A stretch of 64,000 nt of DNA from contig JAOTON010002191.1 in assembly GCA_034440635.1 (NCBI GenBank), positions 248,001 to 312,000 of the forward strand, read 5' to 3'. Below the pieces are notes generated by a model. That model was not told where the DNA came from, did no database searches, and saw only the letters and a list, made by a program, of their open reading frames with translations. Of the stretch, positions 24,400 to 64,000 are shown piece by piece. Position 1 is the stretch's first letter. Every line of letters starts with the position of its first letter. The position numbers and the translations under genes were made by a program. Source of the stretch: Lepas anatifera (taxonomy: Eukaryota > Arthropoda > Thecostraca > Lepadidae).

Positions 24400-24583
24400 C
24401 AGGGGCGTAGCCAGGATTTCACTCGGGGTGGGGGGGTTGGGCGCCCCGAAAAGGGCCCATGCGACAGCACCAAAAGGGCCCTGATGGGTAAAAAGGGCCA
24501 TGCTTGTTACAGAATCGTGTCCTTGGGGGCCCTTCGGGCCCTCAGGGGGCGGCTGTCCCTGCTCCCCCTTGGCTACGCCCCTG
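24400..24583 (+). mobile_element. hAT-type MITE, family 2, copy 1
   Basis: The ends are CAGGGGCGTAGCCAGGAT and, inverted, CAGGGGCGTAGCCAAGG. The left flank ATCGTCAT (24392-24399) recurs 3 bp beyond the right end (24587-24594), so the target duplication is imperfect, probably through slippage in ATC repeats. The 184-bp interior has GGGCCC-rich short repeats. A second copy in the opposite orientation is at 48341-48526. Confidence 0.8.
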
Positions 24584-46623: not shown

Positions 46624-48340
46624 GTATTTAATTTTCACTTTTAAGCACATGTACATCCCGTTATGCAGACACTAAAACAGATATGGCCAAGTGCTTTAAA
46701 ACTAATCGTCTGTATTCTCGTCGTCGACTTGGTGCAAAAGCGGATTTTTCCAGTATAAGAGCAAAAACATATACAAAAATTTAAAATAAAGGGGGTATTA
46801 TCAACTTCTTATATGTTATCTCATTTTGAGAAACAGTCAAACGTCAAAAAAACATCAAAACCGTAAGCAATACCTTCAAAGGTTGTGACCGACCACATAG
46901 TAAAACACTTATAGGTATGTACGTGCCAAGTCTGATTTTGCAAGAACGTCGGCACAAAAAAGCGCAAAGTCAAGTGTTTGCTAGACAAGTTAAGCCTATT
47001 TTCCAGAATCCTGCGCCTCTGAAAGTGATTGTGACTCAGCGGCAGAAGGGAAGTGAGTACGATGCCTGACCTGTGACTCACAGCTCAGCCTTCCCTGGCG
47101 AACTACAGAGCGTGGAGGAGAACACAAGACATGGGCGTGGCCCTGGCCACCACCGGCGTCCCCAGTGGCAGGTACACTACCAACTCCCTGTTGCAAGGGG
47201 AGCACGTCGAAATGTCTCTTTCTTGAACATGACGAGCAATTTACGCCAGGATGCAACTAGCGATTTGCATGCCACTTTTAGATAACCATACCGCATTAAA
47301 GCGAAGATATTGAAAGACCAAGTCCGGGCCAAAGCACGAATCCTATTTGTCGCACACCGAGCAAACATACTGGAAAATAAAGCCACCAAAATATTAGACC
47401 AAATCCGATGACCAAAGTTTTAGAGCAGAGCTGAAACCCAGCGAGCATGATGTGCGAGAGCCGTTTCAGCACATCCCAGTGATTTGGTGTGGAGCCGCCG
47501 CCTGAGCCGAACTGGCTATCTAATGATACAGTGAGCAACTACACGGAAACGGAGGCTGGCAGCCAGCCTGGATACGGTACTCACACGTGTTTGGACTCCT
47601 GAACGAGGCGGCATTGGAGCGTCAGGCACAGCAGCACACCTAGCCAGCGGCAGCGGCCGTCCATCGCTGGCGACGCCGTCGCGCCGACACCGCCGGCAGG
47701 GCGGCGATCGATGGCACGCCGCCGGCCCTCTACCGGAGGCACCGACGCACCCGGCCTGACCCGGTCAGCCGGCGCCGCTCCCCCTCCCCCGCCATCCCTA
47801 TGCCGGAGGCACCGACGCACCCGGCCTGACCCGGTCAGCCGGAGCCCCCCCCGGCCCCAACAGCAGGGAACAAAGTCCTTTCTCTCCGCCTGTCTAACGG
47901 GAGACCCCTGCCCGCAACGAAACTCTATAATCCAAAACTCGTCGGATTCTGGCTGCTACCTTGAGGCTTTTTCCCACTTTAACTGAAAACGGGGAATATT
48001 CACCCTTATTATATTACTATCATTAGCGTATTTGGTGCTGAAGGCGTGCCGACTGGTGAAGTCACTTTGCGCCCATTGCAATAGTAAATTAAAAGAGAAG
48101 AGTACAAAGGTCGGAAATCCCGTCAACCTGCGGGTATGTCGTCATCTACAAAACCAAAACATTTACAAAAATAACACGTCGGTGTAAAATAGTAAATAGG
48201 GCTTAATCCTAGCATCACTTGACTTCACAGGCAAGTCAAAAGATTTTATACAAGAAACCTAAACGTCTACAAAGGAGAGTAGATGACATTAAAACCAACG
48301 CTGTCCAGATAATACATTATGCCTGTGATCCCAACAGGCG
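46624..48340. other. Unassigned sequence with a GC-rich patch and a 40-bp direct repeat
   Basis: In the GC-rich patch (47560-47870) a 40-bp block beginning CCGGAGGCACCGACGCAC occurs at 47733-47772 and again, 70 bp later, at 47803-47842. Frames in this patch on both strands are Pro/Arg-rich, without motifs. No gene recognised. Confidence 0.5.
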
Positions 48341-48526
48341 CAGGGGGCGTAGCCAAGGGGGGCGGCAGGGACAGCCGCCCCCCCTCCTGAGGGCCCGAAG
48401 GTCCCCCTGAGGACACGATTCTGTAACAAACAGGGCCCTTTTTACCTATCAGGGCCCTTCTGGCGCTGTCGCAGGGGCCTTTTCGGGGCGCAGCCCCCCC
48501 TGAGCGAAATCCTGGCTACGCCCCTG
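48341..48526 (-). mobile_element. hAT-type MITE, family 2, copy 2
   Basis: The left end CAGGGGGCGTAGCCAAGG and right inverted end CAGGGGCGTAGCCAGGAT are flanked by AACAGGCG (48333-48340) and AACAGACG (48527-48534), 7 of 8 identical. The 186-bp interior aligns with the complement of 24400-24583. Confidence 0.9.
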
Positions 48527-48532
48527 AACAGA

Positions 48533-48620
48533 CGCTTGATATTTTGAGTCACGTACAGTTATCAGATGAGAACATATTGGGCTTTAGGTGTCCTGATTTA
48601 GGGCTGCAGATCGAATGTGT
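48533..48620 (+). repeat. Dispersed repeat fragment shared with 61095-61180
   Basis: Both copies read CGCTTGATATTTTGA, then TCACGTA, and end in GTGTCCTGATTTAxGGCTGC. The left end of this copy abuts the hAT MITE. Element type unknown. Confidence 0.7.
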
Positions 48621-49119: not shown

Positions 49120-52100
49120 TTAACCAGGATCAAATATTATCGTAAAGTCAATGTCTCTAAGATAGGACAGCACCCGTTCAACCATACTGGAGTCACGGCC
49201 GATCAATTCTAAAAGTGTGGACTCCTGCCGGTGCACGCCAAAATGTAAAGACCTGCGTCTAGCATATTCCGGGCATGAGACCAGCACGTGTCGGACCGAC
49301 AGGGGCGCCGCACATCGCTGACATTGTGGTCGAGGTTCGCCGCATAACAGATATCGGTGAGTGGCCAGCGTGTGGCCAGTCCGCAATCGACACAACGCCA
49401 CCTCCTCACGGCGGTTAGGCCGCAGCGAGGATGGCCACTCACCGATCTCAGGTTTGATAACTTTCAACTTGCTATTTATTATATTATTCCATTGTTCTTG
49501 CCATACACTGCGAAGGTGGGTACATATATATGGGTACAAATCTCTAGCGGGGATTCGTTGCGCACGCCTGCAGGGCCTACGGGAAGCACGTCGGGCCGCT
49601 GCGTCTGCCACTTCATTCAATTGTATTCCAACATGACTTGGGATCCAGCAGAGTGTTACATACTTTCCCAGTCTGGCAAGGCGAGTTAAGCGCAGGACAA
49701 TGTTTAAAACAAGTCCATCACTTGGGTTGAAACCACTCACAGCTTGAATGCTGCTAAGGCTATCGGTGAAAATAACGTATTTCGTGGCATCACTAACTTC
49801 GATAAAGCATAGAGCCTTATCCAAGGCGGTGAGTTCAGAGGTGAAAACCGATGCAAAAGATGAAAGTGAGAAATTTCTTGTTACTGTATCCGTAACAAAA
49901 GCGCATCCCACTCCAACATCAGTTTTTGATCCGTCAGTGTAGAACGACACATGATCTGCATACTGTGCAATGTGTTCGAGCGCCAATTGTTTAAATTCAG
50001 TAGGGATAGTATCGGATTTGGTTTTCCCTGCGAGAGTCATGTCGGTTTTTGGGCAGATAAGTTCCCAAGGAGGGATGTCTGAAAGCTCGCTATGAGTCAC
50101 AACACTCGGCTGGATACCACTTTCGGCCGAGAAACGTTGGACGCGTACGCCCAGTGGGATTCCTCTTTGCACGTTCACAAACAGCCGTAGCATGTTCCGC
50201 GAAAAAACTGCGTTATATGTTGGGTGTGACGGAGACTGAGCCAGCTTACAGGCGTAACGCTGCCCGAGCAGGCGCCGTCGCAATGCGAGAGGTGGTTCAT
50301 TTGCTTCCACCAACAAGCTGGAGCACGGTGTTGTCCTAAACGCACCTGTGGCCACTCGGAGTGCACTATGGTGAATCGTATCTAAACAGCGTTTAGCTGA
50401 TTCCGACGCAGAATCGTATACAAAACAGGCGTAATCCATCTTGGAACGAACAAGAGACCGATAGAGAATGAGAAGTGTCTTCCTGTCCGCTCCGTACGAT
50501 AGACGAGATGCACATTTCAAGGCATTCAATGATTTAAAACACTTGTCACGTATATTCCTAATGTGTGCGTTGTATGTCAGCCGTTTATCAAACGTTACTC
50601 CGAGAAACTTTGCTGTCGGTTGGAAAGTGACAGTTTTACCGCGCAACGATACCATAGGTTCCGGACAGGTCCTGCGCCTGCGACAGAAATGAACACCAGC
50701 GGTTTTTTCGGTCGAAAAATATAATCCATTTTTACTACTCCAGCGTTCCAGATGGTTCACGGCCAGCTGGAGCTGACGGGAAAGTGCCGGCGTTGTTGAA
50801 GCCTTTGCCCATACTGCGATGTCGTCCACGAAAATGGATGCCTGAATGGAAGGTGGGAGTGAATGTGTGACGTCATTTATGGCCAGAGCGAAGAGGCAGA
50901 TACTAGAGACGCTCCCCTGCGGAATGCCTTCTTCTTGATAAAAGGTGTTTGAGTATGTACCACCTACTCTGACACGGAACGTCCTATCAGTCAAAAAATT
51001 TTTCATAAAGAACCCCATCTGACCTCTGATACCACACTTATGCAACTTTAAAAGGATACCATGTCGCCACGCTGTATCATAAGCGGCAATGGCGTCAAAG
51101 AAGACGGCTCCCAGCTGACGCCTCTCTTTAAATGCAATTCGCACTGAGGTGTCAAGTGATACCAAGTGGTCCACCGTACTGCGGCCTCTACGAAACCCAC
51201 ACTGGTTGTTATTGATGATGCCCCGGCTTTCCAAATACCAAACGAGTCTTACATTCACCATTTTTTCGAACAACTTGCACATGCACGAGGTAAGCGAGAT
51301 CGGCCTAAAGTGCAAAGGGTCCAATCCAGATTTACCAGGTTTAAGGATTGGTATCACTATAGCCTCCCGCCACGCCGGTATAAATTCGCCGGACTCCCAC
51401 ATCATATTGAATGAGGCCAGCAGTACCCTGAGTGCGCTCTGCGATAGTGCTTTAAACATATCATTGTGAATTAAATCCGGGCCCTCGGCCACAGGGTGGA
51501 GCCCACGAATGGCTGCCGCTAGCTCATGCAAGGTAAAGGGCTTATTGTATGACAGTGTGCTGGTGGTTCCAAAATGTATACTTTTCTGTTCAGCTAGGGT
51601 TTTATATCGCATAAATGAGACATCCTCCCTAACTGAACTACAGCGCTGTGCAATCGCATTTCCTATACAGTCGGCTACTTCTGTTGGATTGAATATATTC
51701 CTACCACCAATCTGCAGAGTTGGTAGTGGTGTGGAGACCGACCTACCTTCGATACGGCGGATTTGACCAAACACTTGAGACAATGGCGTAAATCGATTCA
51801 GTTTACCTACGTATTCTCTCCAACATTTTCTCTTAGCTTGTTTTATTGTGCGCCTGCAGGCGGCTCGAGATTTCCGATACATATTTAAGTTTTGCTGAGT
51901 GGAATTTCGTTTAAACTGTCTGTAAGCGCGCCGCCGCTCTCGGACAGCGTCTCGGCATTCCATGCTCCACCACGGTACCGGTGGTCGCCGAGGGTTTTTT
52001 GATGTTCGCGGTATAGAAGCATAAGCAGCGTCTCGGAGGATAGCTGTAAATTGGTCGACTGTGAACGGTGTTTGGGTTGAAAAGGTTTCCAAATAGTCAT

Positions 52101-52818
52101 CCACGAGGGAGCTAAATAAGGACATATCAGCATTTTTCATCTTCCAACGTTGCGGTCTCGTGCCTAAAACAGATGTGTTGTCACAAGTCACTAAAACAGG
52201 GAAATGGTCACTTCCCATGGGGTCACTGCACACAGCCCAGCTAAACAGAGCAGATAGCTCTGGGCTGCAAAGGCTAAGATCCAATGCCGATTCCCGACCG
52301 GATGGAATGGTAAGATGTGTTGGTGCTCCGGTGTTTAAAATACAAAGGCTCACACCCTGGATAAAATGATCGAGGTGCCGACCCCGAGAGTTAATATCTT
52401 CACACCCCCAAGCGGTGTGGTGAGCATTAAAGTCTCCCAAGAGAAGGATGGGCGGTGGTAGCTCAGATATAAGCAAATTTAGTTCACGAGTGGGCATGTC
52501 TACCCCAGGGGGTAGGTATATAGAGCAGAGCGAAATCTGCCTTCGAGCGATATATATACGTGCTGCCACGGCTTGCAGCCGTGTTTGGAGTGATATTTGC
52601 TTTGCTGGTATATAATTATTGATTGCGAGAAGAACACCACCGTGGGCGACTGGGTTACGTTGTAAATCCTTTCGAAATATTGAAAAACCTGTAAGGGAGA
52701 ATGGGATCTCAGCTGAGAGTTTAGTTTCTTGCAGGCATATAGCTGCCAGTCCCCTGGATCTCATAAAAGCCTGGAGATCCCCGGCGCTGGTGCGAATTCC
52801 ACGACAGTTCCACTGCAA
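49120..52818 (-). CDS. LINE ORF2: APE endonuclease, reverse transcriptase, RNase H
   Basis: This 1232-codon ORF would nick target DNA and copy the element RNA at the nick. The endonuclease domain (1-215) shows WNCRG (Asn4), LQETKL (Glu31), GDFNAHHT (Asp129, Asn131) and GSDHFP (Asp204, His205). The RT (about 430-720) shows FRPISLTS, motif A FFDAIAAYDTAW (Asp575), motif B IPQGSVSS and motif C FVDD (Asp665, Asp666). RNase H (955-1080) shows FYTDGS (Asp962), SELTAL (Glu995), FTDSLSS (Asp1019), PSHVG (His1062) and EVADAAAR (Asp1072). A Cys/His tail, CQRC..RHVLVSC, is at 1166-1182. All catalytic residues are present. There is no ATG at the start: the first codon used here is TTG, the frame is open upstream to 52857, and the first in-frame ATG (codon 19, 52764) would remove Asn4. 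Termination-reinitiation after ORF1 is plausible. Confidence 0.97.
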   Translation of the reverse strand: MQWNCRGIRTSAGDLQAFMRSRGLAAICLQETKLSAEIPFSLTGFSIFRKDLQRNPVAHGGVLLAINNYIPAKQISLQTRLQAVAARIYIARRQISLCSIYLPPGVDMPTRELNLLISELPPPILLLGDFNAHHTAWGCEDINSRGRHLDHFIQGVSLCILNTGAPTHLTIPSGRESALDLSLCSPELSALFSWAVCSDPMGSDHFPVLVTCDNTSVLGTRPQRWKMKNADMSLFSSLVDDYLETFSTQTPFTVDQFTAILRDAAYASIPRTSKNPRRPPVPWWSMECRDAVRERRRAYRQFKRNSTQQNLNMYRKSRAACRRTIKQAKRKCWREYVGKLNRFTPLSQVFGQIRRIEGRSVSTPLPTLQIGGRNIFNPTEVADCIGNAIAQRCSSVREDVSFMRYKTLAEQKSIHFGTTSTLSYNKPFTLHELAAAIRGLHPVAEGPDLIHNDMFKALSQSALRVLLASFNMMWESGEFIPAWREAIVIPILKPGKSGLDPLHFRPISLTSCMCKLFEKMVNVRLVWYLESRGIINNNQCGFRRGRSTVDHLVSLDTSVRIAFKERRQLGAVFFDAIAAYDTAWRHGILLKLHKCGIRGQMGFFMKNFLTDRTFRVRVGGTYSNTFYQEEGIPQGSVSSICLFALAINDVTHSLPPSIQASIFVDDIAVWAKASTTPALSRQLQLAVNHLERWSSKNGLYFSTEKTAGVHFCRRRRTCPEPMVSLRGKTVTFQPTAKFLGVTFDKRLTYNAHIRNIRDKCFKSLNALKCASRLSYGADRKTLLILYRSLVRSKMDYACFVYDSASESAKRCLDTIHHSALRVATGAFRTTPCSSLLVEANEPPLALRRRLLGQRYACKLAQSPSHPTYNAVFSRNMLRLFVNVQRGIPLGVRVQRFSAESGIQPSVVTHSELSDIPPWELICPKTDMTLAGKTKSDTIPTEFKQLALEHIAQYADHVSFYTDGSKTDVGVGCAFVTDTVTRNFSLSSFASVFTSELTALDKALCFIEVSDATKYVIFTDSLSSIQAVSGFNPSDGLVLNIVLRLTRLARLGKYVTLCWIPSHVGIQLNEVADAAARRASRRPCRRAQRIPARDLYPYICTHLRSVWQEQWNNIINSKLKVIKPEIGEWPSSLRPNRREEVALCRLRTGHTLATHRYLLCGEPRPQCQRCAAPLSVRHVLVSCPEYARRRSLHFGVHRQESTLLELIGRDSSMVERVLSYLRDIDFTIIFDPG

Positions 52819-52876
52819 AAACGTGTTAATGATGGGGGTGGAAGTTAGGGTGAGCGCCTACCAGAGGAGCTACTTG

Positions 52877-54526
52877 CTATTTCCAGTATGGGCCTCCTGG
52901 CCCATAGGTTTTCTTTGGGGGCCCAGAGGGCGCCCCACTTTGCCTGGGTCGAGACGATGCCCCAGGCCTAGATGTCCCTATTGATGCTGCTCGGGCTTTA
53001 GAAGGTTGTGGCTGGCCTGGAGGAGTCCCGGATGCCACACGTTTGGTGGGAGATCTTCCCCTAGTGCTATCCTCCCTCCGTGACCCCTCAAACTGCCTCC
53101 TGACAGCCGCAACCGACGTCGGCGGCGGTGGGGGGAGGCGGAGGGGGCTGATTATCGGACAGAGGAGAAAAGGCAGGAGTAGAGGTAGAGGGCTCACCGT
53201 CAACAGAGATTTCAACGGGGGGCTGGACTGGGGACGGCAGTTGACGTCGCTTCCCACCCTTGCCCACCGTCGTCCAACCCTCGGTCGCTTGAGGGAGGTC
53301 AGGGTCCGGTGCCACCAAGGGCACCCTTTGCCTCGGGTGGCGGGAGTCTCAGACGGGGTGTTGGGGGCAGGAGTGGTCCCCTGCTCCCCGCCCCCACCCC
53401 CAGCCGGGGCCACAGGCGGCGGGGGAGGGGTGGGAGGGATGGGTGGAGGAGGTGCCGCCTCCGGCTGCGATGTCGGGGCGGCGGGCTGGCCAGAAATGAC
53501 CAGCCCCATCCTCCCTGCCAGGCGGATAAAGTCCGCCAGGGTCAGGGAACGGATGACCTCCTCCGGGGTCATCCGCGGTGTCGCTGGCGTCCTTGAGGGC
53601 GCCGCTACGGCGGTCGCTATTCCGCCCACTGTCTCTGCATATGATCTCTGAGGGTAGGAGGTCTCATAGGCTTCCCTCGCAGCCCTAAATGGAATACGTT
53701 TCGCAACCATGATAGAAAGAATCTCCTTTTCTGTCTTCATACGTGGGCAGTTTTTATCATTTGCAGAGTGTGATCCTTTACAGTTTATGCAGTGAAGTGC
53801 TCGTGCGTCACAGTCCCTTCCGTCATGCTTGTTTGATCCACATCGCTCACACACTTTCTCTCCCTTACAAAATCTGGCTGTATGACCATAGCGTTGGCAG
53901 GAAAAGCACCGCATCGGGTTGGGAACATAGGGCCTGACCCGAATCTTCACATATCCGACATTCACGTCCGCCGGCAAATCTACACTATCAAAGGTCAGTA
54001 TCACAGTGTCAGTCTCCTCGAGAATCCCTCCTACTTTTCGCCGCACTCTCCTCGCCTCCACTACACCGCTCTCCATGAGTCCATCAACTATCTCCTCATC
54101 CGGAACCCCTTTCAGATCAAAACATGTAATGACACCCTTCGAAAAATTTTTTGTCTTGTGTGGTACAATCGTGACTTTCACCTTTACTACTTTCCTCTGC
54201 TCCGCTTCTCGCTTCGTGTATCGCAGTTCTGTCGTTTCGAGTGCACGCTGTGCATCTGCTGGGCTACTGAGCTCCACCTCCAGGACGCCGTCCCGAAGGC
54301 AGCTGCACCTCATCACCTTGCCAAGTCGGTCACATGCCTCCTTGCGTTGAAACGGCGAAAGTGATGATAGGGGGCTGTCTACACCCCGAATCATTACAAC
54401 ACGCGGGCGGGAGGGCTTTAAAGTGGCCCTTTGAGAGCCGGCAGTTTCGTTCCCACCAACCTGAAGGGGAGGGGAGGGGAGGGGTTTGCGGTGTTGAGTG
54501 TATCCATGAAAAGTTCTTAAATTCAA
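52877..54526 (-). CDS. LINE ORF1: zinc-knuckle RNA-binding protein
   Basis: This is probably the nucleic-acid-binding partner of ORF2 in the ribonucleoprotein. Residues 60-200 form an RRM-like alpha/beta region. Three zinc knuckles follow: CFSCQRYGHTARFC (207-220), CERCGSNKHDGRDC (226-239) and CINCKGSHSANDKNC (246-260). Then come a charged segment with ILSIMVAKRIPF, a Pro/Gly-rich linker and a basic Ser/Pro tail. The frame has no ATG at its beginning (TTG at 54526). An ATG at 54507 lies in another frame and would join only through an indel in the CCCCT-rich tract at 54472-54485; the first in-frame ATG is codon 45 (54394). Residues about 402-470 look out of frame: frame 53324-53088 gives EGWTTVGKGGKRRQ, more protein-like. 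The copy may therefore be slightly damaged. It ends 20 bases before the ORF2 open frame. Confidence 0.9.
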   Translation of the reverse strand: MNLRTFHGYTQHRKPLPSPPLQVGGNETAGSQRATLKPSRPRVVMIRGVDSPLSSLSPFQRKEACDRLGKVMRCSCLRDGVLEVELSSPADAQRALETTELRYTKREAEQRKVVKVKVTIVPHKTKNFSKGVITCFDLKGVPDEEIVDGLMESGVVEARRVRRKVGGILEETDTVILTFDSVDLPADVNVGYVKIRVRPYVPNPMRCFSCQRYGHTARFCKGEKVCERCGSNKHDGRDCDARALHCINCKGSHSANDKNCPRMKTEKEILSIMVAKRIPFRAAREAYETSYPQRSYAETVGGIATAVAAPSRTPATPRMTPEEVIRSLTLADFIRLAGRMGLVISGQPAAPTSQPEAAPPPPIPPTPPPPPVAPAGGGGGEQGTTPAPNTPSETPATRGKGCPWWHRTLTSLKRPRVGRRWARVGSDVNCRPQSSPPLKSLLTVSPLPLLLPFLLCPIISPLRLPPPPPTSVAAVRRQFEGSRREDSTRGRSPTKRVASGTPPGQPQPSKARAASIGTSRPGASSRPRQSGAPSGPPKKTYGPGGPYWK

Positions 54527-55450
54527 CCAGCCACGTGCGCCCCCCTTCCGACGAGGGTGCTACGAGGCGAGACGACGCACGGGCTGGCTATACGGGGGAG
54601 ACGCCGCCGTTACAGAGGGAGGAGAGAGACTCACCAAACCCCCCTGCCCCGACGACGGTCCCCCCTTGCACCTAGCCTAGACGACCCCGGGCGGGGCCAG
54701 ACACCCCACCCTCCCCGGGTGAAGTTGGGACCTCACCCGAGGAGGGAGGGGCAGCCGAGCCCCACCAAAGGCCGACAGACTTTTACAATGCTGCTACTCT
54801 TGTCGATGCCCTCAAGAGTTCCCCGCCCTTGCGGAAATCCAGACCAAAGTAGAGTGTTGCTAGAGGACGACGAACGAACACAGCGCCTCCCTCAGCTCAG
54901 CTACCAGGACTCCTTCATCCCGGGGTACGGGTCGGTGCGCAGCTCACCTTAAAAAGACGGGCGCCCTCGCACGGCCTCATCGGAGCAAGCGACTACCACC
55001 TGCTCGTCACAACTGATTCCCGGCTGGTCCAAGAGAAGCGAGCCCCCGGCCCGCAGGGCCGGCGAATGGAGGGATCCAATCGCCAGTCACACGAGCCGGA
55101 GGCCCACATACACCCAGACCATCCAGGAATCATAGGCACGTGCAAGGACGCCCATGATACTGGGATAATGTGGGTAACTGGGAAGTTATGAGTTGGAAAA
55201 GGAGGAGGGTCGGTCTGCGCTGTCCAGCCCAGACGCGCGCCGCACGCGACCGAGGTGTCCACACTCAAGACGAGCCAGAGTGCACACACCCCCGCCACCC
55301 GCGGAGACACGCCGGGCCAGACAACGCAGACAGTGGGCAGGAGGGGTGTTTAGGAGTGGACAGAAAGGATACGGGTGGAAAGACATGGAGAGATAAGGAA
55401 ATAAGGAAAGAAGAGGAAAAGGAACAAGGAGTTGGTGGGATTTGAATTTA
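54527..55450 (-). other. Probable 5' untranslated region of the LINE
   Basis: GC-rich sequence upstream of ORF1 without motifs. Overlapping frames on both strands (up to 131 codons) look like composition artefacts. The 5' boundary is not fixed; composition changes between 55350 and 55650. Confidence 0.45.
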
Positions 55451-55633: not shown

Positions 55634-55771
55634 CAGTATCAGGAAATTCTGACTTATATGTTAGGTCTACTCCATCAGGACAGTCCAATAGGGCAACTTG
55701 ACGTCAGTATCAGGAAATTCTGACGTCAAGTTGCCCTATTGGACTGTCCTGATGGAGTAGACCTAACATAT
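55634..55771. repeat. Perfect 52-bp-arm palindrome with a 20-bp direct repeat
   Basis: 55656-55707 is the exact complement of 55720-55771, with a 12-bp spacer. In addition, CAGTATCAGGAAATTCTGAC occurs at 55634-55653 and again at 55705-55724, spanning the spacer. There is no mismatch in either relationship. Confidence 0.98.
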
Positions 55772-56929
55772 ACATTGCTGGAATGCGATTGATATGTGAA
55801 CTATGACAGCTAATCTCGCGTTAAGTTGCCGCATATAGATTCATCTAGCAGTGTTACATAGGGCGCGGTGTGAAACTGTTACAAAGCAATGGTATTCACC
55901 AGGGGCGCAGCCAGAGCTTTCGTATGGGGGGCACACCAACTTTGAGGGGCACCCTGGGGAAAAAAGGGCACTTTTTAACGTAACCTAAAAAACTTACTAT
56001 ATCTTTGTTATATCATTTTTTGGGCATCTTTGGTTCAATAAAAATGCAAAGAAATCATTGGCGGAGAAGGAAAACTCGATTAAAACCGAAAAAAGGAACA
56101 AAATATCACCAAAATGCCATGGAAGTAGCCAAAACACTACTTTTTTGGATAGATTTAAGGACAGCCAACTCATGCAAGTACTTAACATCAGCGGAGCATG
56201 TGATATCTGTTACAATGTGCAGGTTAAGGCATATTGGAGTCGAATTTTTTATGCCCACTGGTTTTGTCGTGACGAATGAACCCTGGCTGAATGCGGATTA
56301 AGTTCCTTGCCTCCCACAATCGCCGTGGGACGAGGAGTAGCATAGTGTCTTTGAAAGAACACATTTTTGCTGCCGGAAAAAATTTGGGAGATACCTTTTG
56401 AACGCGTTTATTAAGTTCCATATTCGCAAGGCTCGGTCCCAGTTAAGAGTAAATAAAAGATGAACTGGCTGGTGGTTTGGATGGGGATGGTGTGACAGGG
56501 CTGAAAATTGTGAAAACTATTTCTTCATTTAAATTAATCAGTAAAAATCCTGGTTTAGGGGACTGTGCTCTGAGCTCAGGGGCACATGCCTTTTTATCAT
56601 CCCTTCCCAGAATCCACCAGTATAATAAGCAATTTATATAACCAGGGGTGTCTAGGTATCACAAGCCGTTTTAGAGATTCCTCATTCCTCGTTAGCTCCG
56701 TTTTACAAGGGGAGTTTTCATTGTGTTCTTATTCCCCATCTATTCAAGACCAGCTCTGGGGCCCCCAAGTGTGGATCAGAGGCTTCCAGAGCAACTTCCC
56801 CCATCCCCCCAGTTGTGCCTCCAGGGAATAGACTAGCTCAGTGACCCCGCCCGCAGATGATGGGAGTTGGCCTTGTGTTCTTATTATCTATCTATTCAAG
56901 ATCACCCCAGGGGCCCCTGATTTAGATCA

Positions 56930-58540
56930 GGGCCACAGAGCAGCTCATGCTTCACCCAGGGACTAGACTAGCTCATTGGTCCCAGAGATGAGGTCATCAG
57001 ACTAGCTCAATGGGCCACAGATAGGCTCATAGGGCCTTAAACTAGTTCATGAAGCCCCAGAACAGTTTAAGGCACCAGATCACTTCAGGGGCCTCAAGCC
57101 AACTTAAGGGGCTCTCACAAGCTCAGCGCCCAGACCAGCTCAGGGTACCCTCAGAACCTAGATCCGCTCTTGGGCCCCAGATCAGCTCTTGGGGCCCCAG
57201 ATCAGTTCAGGAACCTCAAGTCAGGTCAGGGGGCAAGATCAAGTCAGGGGCACTAATTCAGCTCAGGAGTCCCTCACCAGCTCGGGGCCCAAGCAGTTCA
57301 AAAGCCCCAGAGGTGCTCAGGGGACACCAGATCGGCCCATAGGGCACCAGATCAGCCCAGGGGACAAACAATCAGATCAGTGGTCCCCGACCAGCTCGGG
57401 GCTCAGATCAGCTCGGGAATACCCGATCAAGTCAGGAGGCACTTAATCAGCCCAGGAGCCCCATACCATCTCAGAGGCCCTCACCAACCCCTGTGGGCCC
57501 AGCTCAGCTCAGGGCCTGGGAGCTGCTCAGGAAATCACATATTAACCCAGGAGGCCCGGGTCAGCTTAAAGGGCACCATATTAGCAATGGGGCACCAGAC
57601 TAGCTCAGAGGGAATAAGATGGGCTCAGGAGACACACTGATGATTCAGCAAGCACCAGATCCACTCAGGGGGCATTAGTTGAGTTCAGGAGGCAGTATAT
57701 CTGCTCAGGGTACACCAGATCGATCAGCACAAGGGGCATGTTCAAGTCATGGGCACTAAATCAGCTCAGGGATCCCTCACCAGCTCGGGGCCCAATCAGT
57801 TCAAAAGCCCCAGAGCTGCTCAGGGGAAACCAGATGCCCATAGGGCACCAGATCAGCTCCGGGCACAAACAATCAGATCAGTGGTCCCCGACCAGCTCGG
57901 GAATACCAGATCAAGTCAGGAGGCACTTAATCAGCTCAGGAGCCCCATACCATCTCAAGGGCCCTCATCAGCCTCTGTGGGCCCAGCTCAGCTCAGGGCT
58001 TTAGATCTGCTCATGAAATCACGTAAGGAGGCCCAGTTCAGCTTAAAGGGCACCAGATTAGCTCAGGGGGCACCAGACTAGCTCAGAGGGCATCAGATGG
58101 GCTCAGGAGGCACCAGATCGACTCAGGGGCATTAGTGCAGCTCAGGTGGCACCAGATAGATCCGCCAAACCAGCTCAGGGGGGGACCAGACCATGTAAGG
58201 AGACATCAATAATCAGTTGAGGGGCACCTATTCGGCTGAAGAGGCACCATATTGACTTAGGAAACAGAATCAACTTGGGGAGGCATGAGATCAGTTCGGG
58301 GGCCCGAATCAGCTCAAGGGGCACTAAATCAGCTATTAGGGCACCAAACAAGCTCGGAAGCATTAGACTAACTCAGAGAGCATTATATAGGTTCAGGAGG
58401 CACAATTATTTGCTCAGGGGGGGGCACTCGATCGACTCAGGAACACCAGATCAGCTTAGGGGGCAAGTAATTAGCTCAAGGGGCCAAGACCAGCTGAGAG
58501 GCCACGAGATGAGCTCAAGGAGCACCAGATTGGCTTCAAC
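56930..58540. repeat. Degenerate short-unit array inside the hAT-type element
   Basis: Units of roughly 20-25 bp close to GGGGCACCAGATCAGCTCAG occur dozens of times, with variants such as AGTCAGGAGGCACTAA and CCAGCTCGGGGCCC. Larger duplications exist: a block around 57240-57480 recurs at 57735-57960. Confidence 0.9.
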
Positions 58541-60927
58541 CGTACGATTATTGGCGACAATGAGGCATTAGGTGGACACATACTAGGTGCCCATACTCTT
58601 CCCGGGTGCTTGGAAAGGCGATAGAATGCCCTAGCTGACCGAGAAAGGTATTACGTTGTCCAACAATAGTTTCAATCGCTACATTCGGTCCAGTTACATC
58701 TAGGTTCAACGGCTAGGGCACTAAATTTTGAGCGGCACGGCCCAAATTGGGTACACCACCTGGCAATCAAAGGGCACCCCGGCAGTGATGGGGGCACGTG
58801 TCCCCTGTGCCTTCCTGGCTGCACCCCTGGACAGTACATCAACTCCGGGAGGCATTAAATAAGCTCAGGGGGCCCGGATCAGCTCAAGGGGCACCAAAAC
58901 AGCTAAAAGGACACCGGGCAAGCTCGGAGACATCAAACTAACTCAGAGAGTATTTTATAGGCTCAGAAGGCACACTTATTTTCTCAGGAGGGCACCAGAT
59001 TGACTACGAGGGCACCAGATCAGCTCAGAGGGCACATGATCAGCTCCAGGGGGCACCAGATGAGCTCCGCCCGTACGATGAGGCATTATCTGGAAACGGA
59101 TTACGTGCCTATGCTCTTCCGGGTGCTTGGAAAGGCGACAGAATGCCCTAGCTGACCAAAAAGGCACTTAGTTGTCAAACAATAGTTGAAATCGCTAAAT
59201 GCAGTCTAGTTACATCTAGGTTCAACGGCGCAGGGCACTAAATTTCGAGCGGCACGGCCCAAAGGGGGTACACCACCTGGCAATCAAAGGGCACCCGGCA
59301 CCGATGGGTGCACGTGCCCCTATGCCCCCCTGGACAGTAGATAAACTCCGGGAGGCATTAAATAAGCTCAGGGGGCCCGGATCAGCTCAAGGGGCACTAA
59401 AACAGCTAAAAGGACACCAGGCAAGCTCGGAGACATCAAACTAACTCAGAGAGTATTTTATAGGCTCAGAAGGCACACTTATTTTCTCAGGAGGGCACCA
59501 GATTGACTACGAGGGCACCAGATCAGCTCAGAGGGCACATGATCAGCTCCAGGGGGCACCAGATGAGCTCCGCCCGTACGATGAGGCATTATCTGGAAAC
59601 GGATTACGTGCCTATGCTCTTCCCGGGTGCTTGGAAAGGCGACAGAATGCCCTAGCTGACCAAAAAGGCACTTAGTTGTCAAACAATAGTTGAAATCGCT
59701 AAATGCAGTCTAGTTACATCTAGGTTCAACGGCGCAGGGCACTAAATTTCGAGCGGCACGGCCCAAAGGGGGTACACCACCTGGCAATCAAAAGGGCACC
59801 CGGCACCGATGGGTGCACGTGCCCCCTATGCCCCCCTGGACAGTAGATAAACTCCGGGAGGCATTAAATAAGCTCAGGGCCCCGGATCAGCTCAAGGGGC
59901 ACTAAAACAGCTAATAGAGCAGCAAGCAAGCTCGGAGGCATCAGACTAACTTAGAGAGCATTGTATAGGTTCAGAAGGCACAATTATTTATTCAGGGGAG
60001 GGGGCACCAGATTGACTACGAGGGCATCAGATCAGCTCAGAAAGCACATGATCACCTCCAGGGGGCACCAGATGAGCTCCACCCGTACGATTATTGGCGA
60101 CGATGAGGCATTATCTGGAAACGGATTACGTGCCTATACTCTTTCCGGGTGCTTGGAAAGGCGACAGAATGTTTAAGGTGACCAAAAAGGCACTTAATTG
60201 TCAAACAATAGTTGAAATCGCTAAATGCGACCTAGTTCCATCTAGGTTCAACGGCGTAGGGCACTAAATTTCGAGCGGCACGGCCCAAAGAGGGTACACC
60301 ACCTGGCAATCAAAAGGGCACCCGGCACCGATGGGGGCACGTGCCCCCTGTGCCCCCTGGCTGCGGTCCTGGACAGTAGATAAACTACGGGAGGCATTAA
60401 ATAAGTTCAGGGGCCCGGATCAGCTCAAGGGGCACTAAAACAGCTAATAGGGCACCAGGCAAGCTCGGCGGTATCAGACTAACTCAGAGAACATTATATA
60501 GATTCAGAAGGCACAATTATTTTCTCGGGGGGGGCACCAGATTGACAACGAGGGCATCAGATCAGCTCCAGGGTTCAAGACCAGCGCTCACGGGGCACCA
60601 GATGAGCTCAAGGGGCACCAGATTAGCTCTGCCCATGCGATTATTGGCGACGATGAGGCATTATCTGGAAACGGATTACGTGCCTATACTCTTCCCAGGT
60701 GCTTGGAAAGGCGACAGAATGCCCTAACTGACCAAAAAGGCACTTAATTGTCAAACAATAGTTTAAATCACTAAATGCAGTCTAGTTCCATCTGGGCTCA
60801 ACGACGTAGGGCACCAAATTTCGAGCGGCACGGCCCAAAAAGGGCACACCACCTGGCAATCAAAAGGGCACCCCGGCACCGATGGGGGGGGGCACGTGCC
60901 CCTGTGCCCCCCCTGGCTGCGCCACTG
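58541..60927. repeat. About 0.5-kb higher-order repeats, each with a TIR-like end
   Basis: The landmark CGTACGATTATTGGCGACGA (or its shortened form) starts at 58541, 59072, 59575, 60084 and 60634, giving periods of 531, 503, 509 and 550 bp. Each unit has a unique part (ATCTGGAAACGGATTACGTG, GCTTGGAAAGGCGACAGAAT, GAGCGGCACGGCCCAAA) followed by a stretch resembling the right terminus. CTGGCTGCACCCCTG ends at 58829 and CTGGCTGCGGTCCTG at 60372. Weaker forms end near 59332 and 59838, and the true end is 60927. Confidence 0.92.
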
Positions 60928-60935
60928 GTATTCAC

Positions 60936-61532
60936 TACTGCACCAGACTGACTCTTCCTTCTAAAACCATGTCTGCAGACCCACATATACTCACAAATGT
61001 CTCTATCGTATGCATGCGATTGTTTGAACATAAATATGAACTTATCGCTATTTCGTATAAATTTCCGGGATTCTCAAGTCCACAATTTCATCGGCGCTTG
61101 ATATTTTGAATCACGTAGTTGTCAGATGGGCACACAATGGCCTTTACGTGTCCTGATTTAAGGCTGCAGAATGGGATGTGACTGGTGCCCGAGCGGTCGC
61201 GGTGTTCCGTGCGTCGCGGCGGCGCACAGTGTTCTAACGGAGCCGAAAGTGGGGACATAATTCAATAACTCAGGAAGCATGAATCCCAGATCAATAATTT
61301 TGATATCAATCGAAAGCTCTTTTCCCACAGATTATGTGGACAACATATGAATGTCAAGACCTGACCACAGCGGGCATGACTGTCAGGTATTTGACCCTAG
61401 GTCAGCAACAAAAATAACTATATTTATATATGATAATAAGGGGGCTTTGCATGGATATTCCATTTAATTTCCACTCACTTTAAGCGTATACACGCGATAA
61501 GCTTGATACTGAAGAGGTTACTTAAACCTCAC
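60936..61532. other. Unassigned sequence with one dispersed repeat fragment
   Basis: 61095-61180 matches 48533-48620. The rest is not recognised. Confidence 0.55.
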
Positions 61533-63812: not shown

Positions 63813-64000
63813 CAGGGGCGCAGCCAGAGCTTTGGCATGGGAGAGCACACCACCTTTGAGGGGCACCCCGGGAGAGAAAGGGCACTTTTAACGTAACCTA
63901 AAAACTTACAATATCTTAGTTAATATTAACTTTTGGGTACCTTTGGTCCAAGAAAATGCAAATCAAGCATTGCCAGAGAAGGAAAACTGAAGTAAAACCA
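63813..64000 (+). mobile_element. Left end of a second large hAT-type element (cut by window edge)
   Basis: It starts CAGGGGCGCAGCCAGAGC and aligns with 55900-56090 (about 80 % by eye), including GAGGGGCACCC, AAAGGGCACTTTT and AACGTAACCTAAAA. The 8 bp to its left are TCCACGAT; the right end is outside the window. Confidence 0.9.

Follow-up and report, generated by a model that had tools for sequence, protein, structure and literature searches.

Positions 55900–60927 of the 64-kb window (the whole stretch of Lepas anatifera DNA that was analysed) are a non-autonomous hAT-type element with a perfect 8-bp target duplication, in which the right end is present five times in tandem, with the same joint between all successive units. 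The latest duplication affected internal units. This arrangement probably arose when a right terminus was joined just once to a 20-bp repeat array, with exchange between the resulting units then raising their count to five.

The element is 5028 bp long and is delimited by terminal inverted repeats (TIRs) and a perfect target site duplication (TSD), found at both ends just as an earlier reading of the sequence alone (below, the sequence-only reading) had placed them. Its parts, and the beginning of a second copy of the family, are located in the window as follows.

55892–55899, no strand: left TSD, GTATTCAC, with an identical 8-mer at 60928–60935
55900–55914, plus strand: left TIR, CAGGGGCGCAGCCAG, with 0 mismatches to the degenerate TIR pattern
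55915–56989, plus strand: left subterminal and middle part, without a long ORF; three GGGCAC motifs lie within 200 bp of the element's left terminus
56990–58540, plus strand: degenerate 20-bp repeat array, consensus GGGGGCACCAGATCAGCTCA; limits drawn by eye
58262–58829, plus strand: U0, the innermost right-end unit, ending in CTGGCTGCACCCCTG (TIR, 1 mismatch); its left limit is approximate, as the unit emerges from the 20-bp array
58830–59332, plus strand: U1, a tandem unit that starts with GACAGTAC right after CTG; a TIR remnant at its own end, with the inner half deleted
59333–59838, plus strand: U2, a tandem unit that starts with GACAGTAG; TIR remnant as in U1
59839–60371, plus strand: U3, a tandem unit that starts with GACAGTAG and ends in CTGGCTGCGGTCCTG (2 mismatches)
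60372–60927, plus strand: U4, the terminal unit, which starts with GACAGTAG and carries the true right TIR
60913–60927, plus strand, within U4: the true right TIR, CTGGCTGCGCCACTG, with 0 mismatches to the degenerate pattern
60928–60935, no strand: right TSD, GTATTCAC
63813–64000, plus strand: left end of another family copy, with an identical 15-bp left TIR; it runs off the end of the window

The two 15-bp TIRs differ from each other at one position, and each of them fits the degenerate pattern CAGKGGCGCAGCCAG without mismatches. With up to three mismatches allowed, this pattern is matched 15 times in the window, compared to 2.37 matches expected, and none of 100 shuffled sequences reached 15; the 15 matches take in other elements, as well as chance-like matches with three mismatches. 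The element has the 8-bp TSD of a hAT and, at both ends, short TIRs of the CAG..GGCG type, which we take to be typical of that superfamily. No transposase is encoded in it, the longest overlapping stop-to-stop frame being 132 aa. For a chance ORF across the second joint (59220–59441), no protein with three shared words was found, and Rfam yielded 0 matches in the window at the gathering score. Tandem DNA (56990–60927) accounts for 78% of the element, in agreement with its earlier description as mostly tandem arrays, and the part past the first internal end (58830–60927) accounts for 42%.

In the 20-bp array, 46 gap-free units could be recognised, which together make up 920 of the 1551 bp. The array also contains a duplication of ~0.5 kb of its own (57221–57694 and 57724–58151, 81.5%), inside which no match to the TIR was present at three or fewer mismatches. 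The motif GGGCAC, which was picked after sight of the sequence, is found in the left end, the array, and the right ends, with 49 plus-strand and 7 minus-strand occurrences in the element (summed over five adjacent regions), compared to 15 and 11, respectively, in the 55.9 kb to the left of it. The arrays thus multiply a motif that occurs subterminally on both sides. In other hAT elements, repeats in such positions serve as sites for the transposase, and the proposal of the sequence-only reading that transposase-binding sites would be multiplied is reasonable for these candidate sites, although two of the four internal TIRs are broken. The similarity of the left and right subterminal regions was assessed in eight comparisons with 300 shuffles each; the observed score was reached by 0, 1, 2, and 20 shuffles in direct orientation and by 0, 31, 76, and 231 in inverted orientation. 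The better of these scores may be explained by shared GGGCAC-type motifs, and longer homology is not claimed.

The five right ends close at 58829, 59332, 59838, 60371, and 60927, with spacings of 503, 506, 533, and 556 bp, all within one TSD-bounded element, and the terminal CTG closes all five units. The recurrence every 0.5 kb of a unit that includes the terminus itself, as proposed in the sequence-only reading, is therefore present. The five TIR-like ends listed there are of unequal quality, since three are recognisable and those at 59332 and 59838 are mere remnants: mismatches to the 15-base TIR pattern number, in order, 1, 5, 5, 2, and 0, and the inner half of the TIR has been lost in these two of the four internal ends, which keep the outermost bases alone. 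Of the end positions given there, 60372 is one base off, the correct end being 60371. Self-comparison of the sequence, the kind of check recommended there, aligns 58269–60365 with 58838–60921 (86.3% over 2158 columns), with three longer offsets besides; the parallel diagonals are displaced by one to four units. As regards the satellite nursery suggested in the sequence-only reading, these units had no match in the rest of the 64-kb window at an E-value limit of 1e-3. A palindrome resembling GGGGCACGTGCCCC is found near each right end (58788–58805, 59306–59323, 59811–59826, 60333–60348, and 60888–60902), located 23–25 bp inside three of the ends and 9 and 12 bp inside the two with a shortened TIR.

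All four internal joints read CTG/GACAGTA, with the next base being C in U1 and G in U2–U4, and of the first 20 bases after CTG, 17–20 are identical in every pair of joints; the position of the joint can be moved by a base or two owing to shared G residues. Such likeness of all four joints points to one joining event, after which the joint was multiplied together with its unit. For alignments and trees, the units were cut at 58262–58830, 58831–59333, 59334–59838, 59839–60373, and 60374–60927, a choice that affects the last columns only. U1 and U2 are 99.2% identical, differing in 8 alignment columns, one of them due to where the units were cut, and have in common the TIR deletion, a 13-bp deletion, and the joint. 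It follows that a whole unit was duplicated along with its joint. U3 is 91.8 and 92.4% identical to U1 and U2, U4 is 89.6, 90.4, and 89.0% identical to U1, U2, and U3, and U0 is 81.7–83.0% identical to the other four units. Unit-specific changes number 54 in U0, 16 in U3, and 22 in U4, these three being 11–18% apart.

In neighbor-joining trees based on 496 gap-free columns, U1 and U2 were grouped in 1000 of 1000 bootstrap replicates. The grouping of U0 with U4 (equivalent to U1–U3 together) was obtained in 796 replicates, U0 with U3 in 113, and U3 with U4 in 91. Sites dividing the units two against three are distributed similarly, with 11 for U1+U2, 5 for U0+U4, 3 each for U0+U3 and U3+U4, and 1 for U0+U1. 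The order of the units thus appears firm for U1+U2 alone, the remainder being weakly resolved, and no crossover point could be located by comparing the units. The grouping of U0 with U4 would be expected if units at the edges of an array drift while the inner ones exchange. The sequence-only reading suggested that the element had grown by repeated copying of its right end. This is not supported, as one joint is found at four of four sites, the youngest pair is internal, and the terminal unit U4 is not close to that pair (89.6 and 90.4%). An internal youngest pair flanked by more divergent edge units fits exchange or conversion between units, not re-copying of the terminus.

How the first joint formed can be approached from its position and from the bases that follow it. 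In all four internal joints, the joint falls on the last base of the TIR, which is where hAT transposase cuts. The first full array unit past the joint begins at the 19th base, and its scores are, joint by joint, 20.8, 20.8, 20.8, and 19.6 bits. By eye, the sequence from the 9th base onward (ATCAACTCC in U1) resembles the corresponding part of the array consensus. A 20-mer spanning each joint scores 0.6, 3.9, 3.9, and 0.4 bits against the array. The eight bases directly after CTG, which under joining by transposase should be array sequence derived from the target, were tested in the form found in U1 (GACAGTAC): an equally good array score is obtained by 12% of the 8-mers from positions 1–55000, 1 of the 46 array units scores as low, and when random 8-mers were put in their place, the best array match was as good in 18% of 400 trials. 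A target copy of these eight bases was not identified. The position of the joint on the last TIR base points to nested or alternative transposition, in which transposase would have cut a right end that then became joined to a 20-bp array, but the eight bases beside it are only weakly array-like and joining by transposase is therefore not proven.

The sequence of events that we favor would begin with a right terminus being joined once, at the last base of its TIR, to the 20-bp array, either its own or that of another copy, so that one right end came to follow another. Cutting by transposase would be the most probable route, with the free right end inserting into the array carried by a sister or host copy; this could take the form either of a nested insertion, after which recombination removed the second left end, or of alternative transposition in a single step. 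From there, the ~0.5-kb units would have increased to five as they underwent unequal exchange or gene conversion. The anatomy, the shared joint, and the internal position of the latest duplication are observed, whereas we infer the part played by transposase in making the joint and that of unequal exchange, as opposed to slippage, in the amplification. Had the units grown in place, the joint probability of an intact TSD and 30 untouched TIR bases would be 0.153, 0.094, 0.022, and 0.005 for 4, 5, 8, and 11% change per lineage, respectively; we lean towards the composite having later transposed as a whole. We can also speculate, although we would give this scenario a low probability, that hAT transposase itself starts satellites by inserting a cut right end into the subterminal minisatellite of another copy. 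Each exchange would then add a complete, potentially usable right terminus, and right ends would number from one to many in the different copies of the family, with the inner ones able to serve as alternative termini and to bud off shorter elements.

Aberrant gap repair, the example given in the sequence-only reading, would place the boundary of the unit at the same point by another route. After excision or cleavage of an end, synthesis from a sister copy would slip in the 20-bp array, which offers slippage sites, and re-copy the right terminus, with further rounds adding units; a break at the terminus would likewise set the boundary there. Repeated rounds, however, should yield differing joints, whereas the four are alike, and the youngest copy would be expected at the terminus, where U4 is found instead of U1 or U2, making this explanation rather unlikely. 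Gap repair may, however, have acted in one round and exchange thereafter, a course of events that departs from the favored account in its first step only.

A distinctly unlikely alternative dispenses with transposase and has the units arise by simple unequal exchange or by slippage during replication, the breakpoint having met the end of the TIR by chance. The eight bases after the joint, which are not clearly derived from a target, are compatible with it, and tandem arrays of coral MITEs were put down to replication slippage by their authors, according to the available text of that report (PMC2872659). It would nevertheless be improbable for the boundary of a ~500-bp unit to fall by chance on the terminal base of the element, an argument that is post hoc and concerns a single event. 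That the unit count was inflated or collapsed during assembly of a repetitive stretch is very improbable; U1 and U2 are indeed nearly the same sequence, but an assembler would not have invented the changes private to U0, U3, and U4, and any doubt is confined at most to the U1/U2 pair. Joining of one terminus to the array, followed by exchange, remains the account that we prefer.

Several other repeats lie in the window. The second copy of the family, at 63813, is 84.2% identical over 190 columns to 55900–56087. Two short (~185 bp) hAT-like MITEs, at 24400–24583 and about 48340–48526, have a similar TIR, CAGGGGCGTAGCCAG, and interiors that are alike by eye, in opposite orientation. Another dispersed repeat (61095–61180 and 48533–48619, 84%) has, in both cases, a hAT-like element on its left at a distance of no more than 170 bp. 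Approximately 130 bp to the left of the hAT element, a near-perfect palindrome (55655–55772), with 56-nt arms that are 98% complementary and separated by 6 nt, starts with TATATG and ends with CATATA, and is perhaps a hairpin MITE. A LINE occupies 49120–54559 on the minus strand, with a 1245-aa open frame and a 560-aa frame upstream. The former (49120–52854, minus strand) carries RVT_1 and endonuclease domains and is 63% identical to the best relative listed; among the 120 of 169 relatives listed is the spider Araneus ventricosus, at 37% identity. The 560-aa frame contains CCHC-like motifs by eye and matched 0 Pfam families. A viral contig collection had 0 contigs with exact patterns of either end or of the 20-bp array, and a prokaryote genome contig collection had 0 with those of the right end and the array, as expected for animal DNA.

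The locus may preserve the start of a satellite, with one joint at a transposon terminus and subsequent amplification still framed by intact TIRs and a TSD, and it bears on the question of how tandem satellites arise from dispersed transposons. If other copies have the same joint with other numbers of units, the order of the steps could be read directly from an assembly.

The hAT superfamily includes hobo, an element of Drosophila melanogaster. That DNA transposons, hATs among them, may carry or become tandem arrays is already known from cod, hobo, Galileo, and coral, as far as the available text of the respective reports goes (PMC12368964, PMC12628747, PMC3573991, PMC2872659). In the open-access literature, to the extent of the text available, we found no case of a unit bounded exactly at one terminus and present several times within one TSD-framed element, and we do not claim its absence from print. 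Coral CMITE arrays, cited alongside the Xenopus MITE Xstir, were described as a route of MITE growth besides transposition; they resemble the present case as non-autonomous DNA in tandem arrays, but the available text describes them as piggyBac-type, with TTAA target sites and full-sized elements in tandem (PMC2872659). In Galileo, of the P superfamily, ~210-bp tandem repeats near the ends vary in copy number, and recombination between copies was proposed to drive TIR change; that element differs in its superfamily and long TIRs, and in the available part of the paper no repeat that includes the terminus is described (PMC3573991).

Alternative transposition of maize Ac, a hAT, makes tandem direct duplications with 8-bp target duplications, and the joining of hAT ends to new sites by reversed-ends transposition of Ac/Ds offers a possible source of the first joint here. 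As presented in the available text, the Ac/Ds events take place between host DNA and the ends of two closely spaced elements and are marked by 8-bp target duplications that match, which is not demonstrable here (PMC3744419). The Atlantic cod elements gadMor-hAT-8043 and gadMor-hAT-1784 are, like the present one, non-autonomous, hAT-derived, and made of tandem repeats, with mean insertion lengths of 1.3–5.8 kb. According to the available text, the cod units are 167–169 bp long, whereas here they are ~0.5 kb and contain a 20-bp minisatellite, and gadMor-hAT-1784 has long (~600 bp) inverted repetitive ends in place of short TIRs with a perfect TSD (PMC12368964). Finally, hobo reached 16 copies in tandem, from which satellites were proposed to be able to arise, and double insertion and unequal exchange were suggested as the route (review PMC12628747, describing McGurk and Barbash 2018). 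The hobo tandems, as that review presents them in its available part, go back to insertion at one site, whereas here the right end alone is repeated, inside one TSD-bounded element (PMC12628747).
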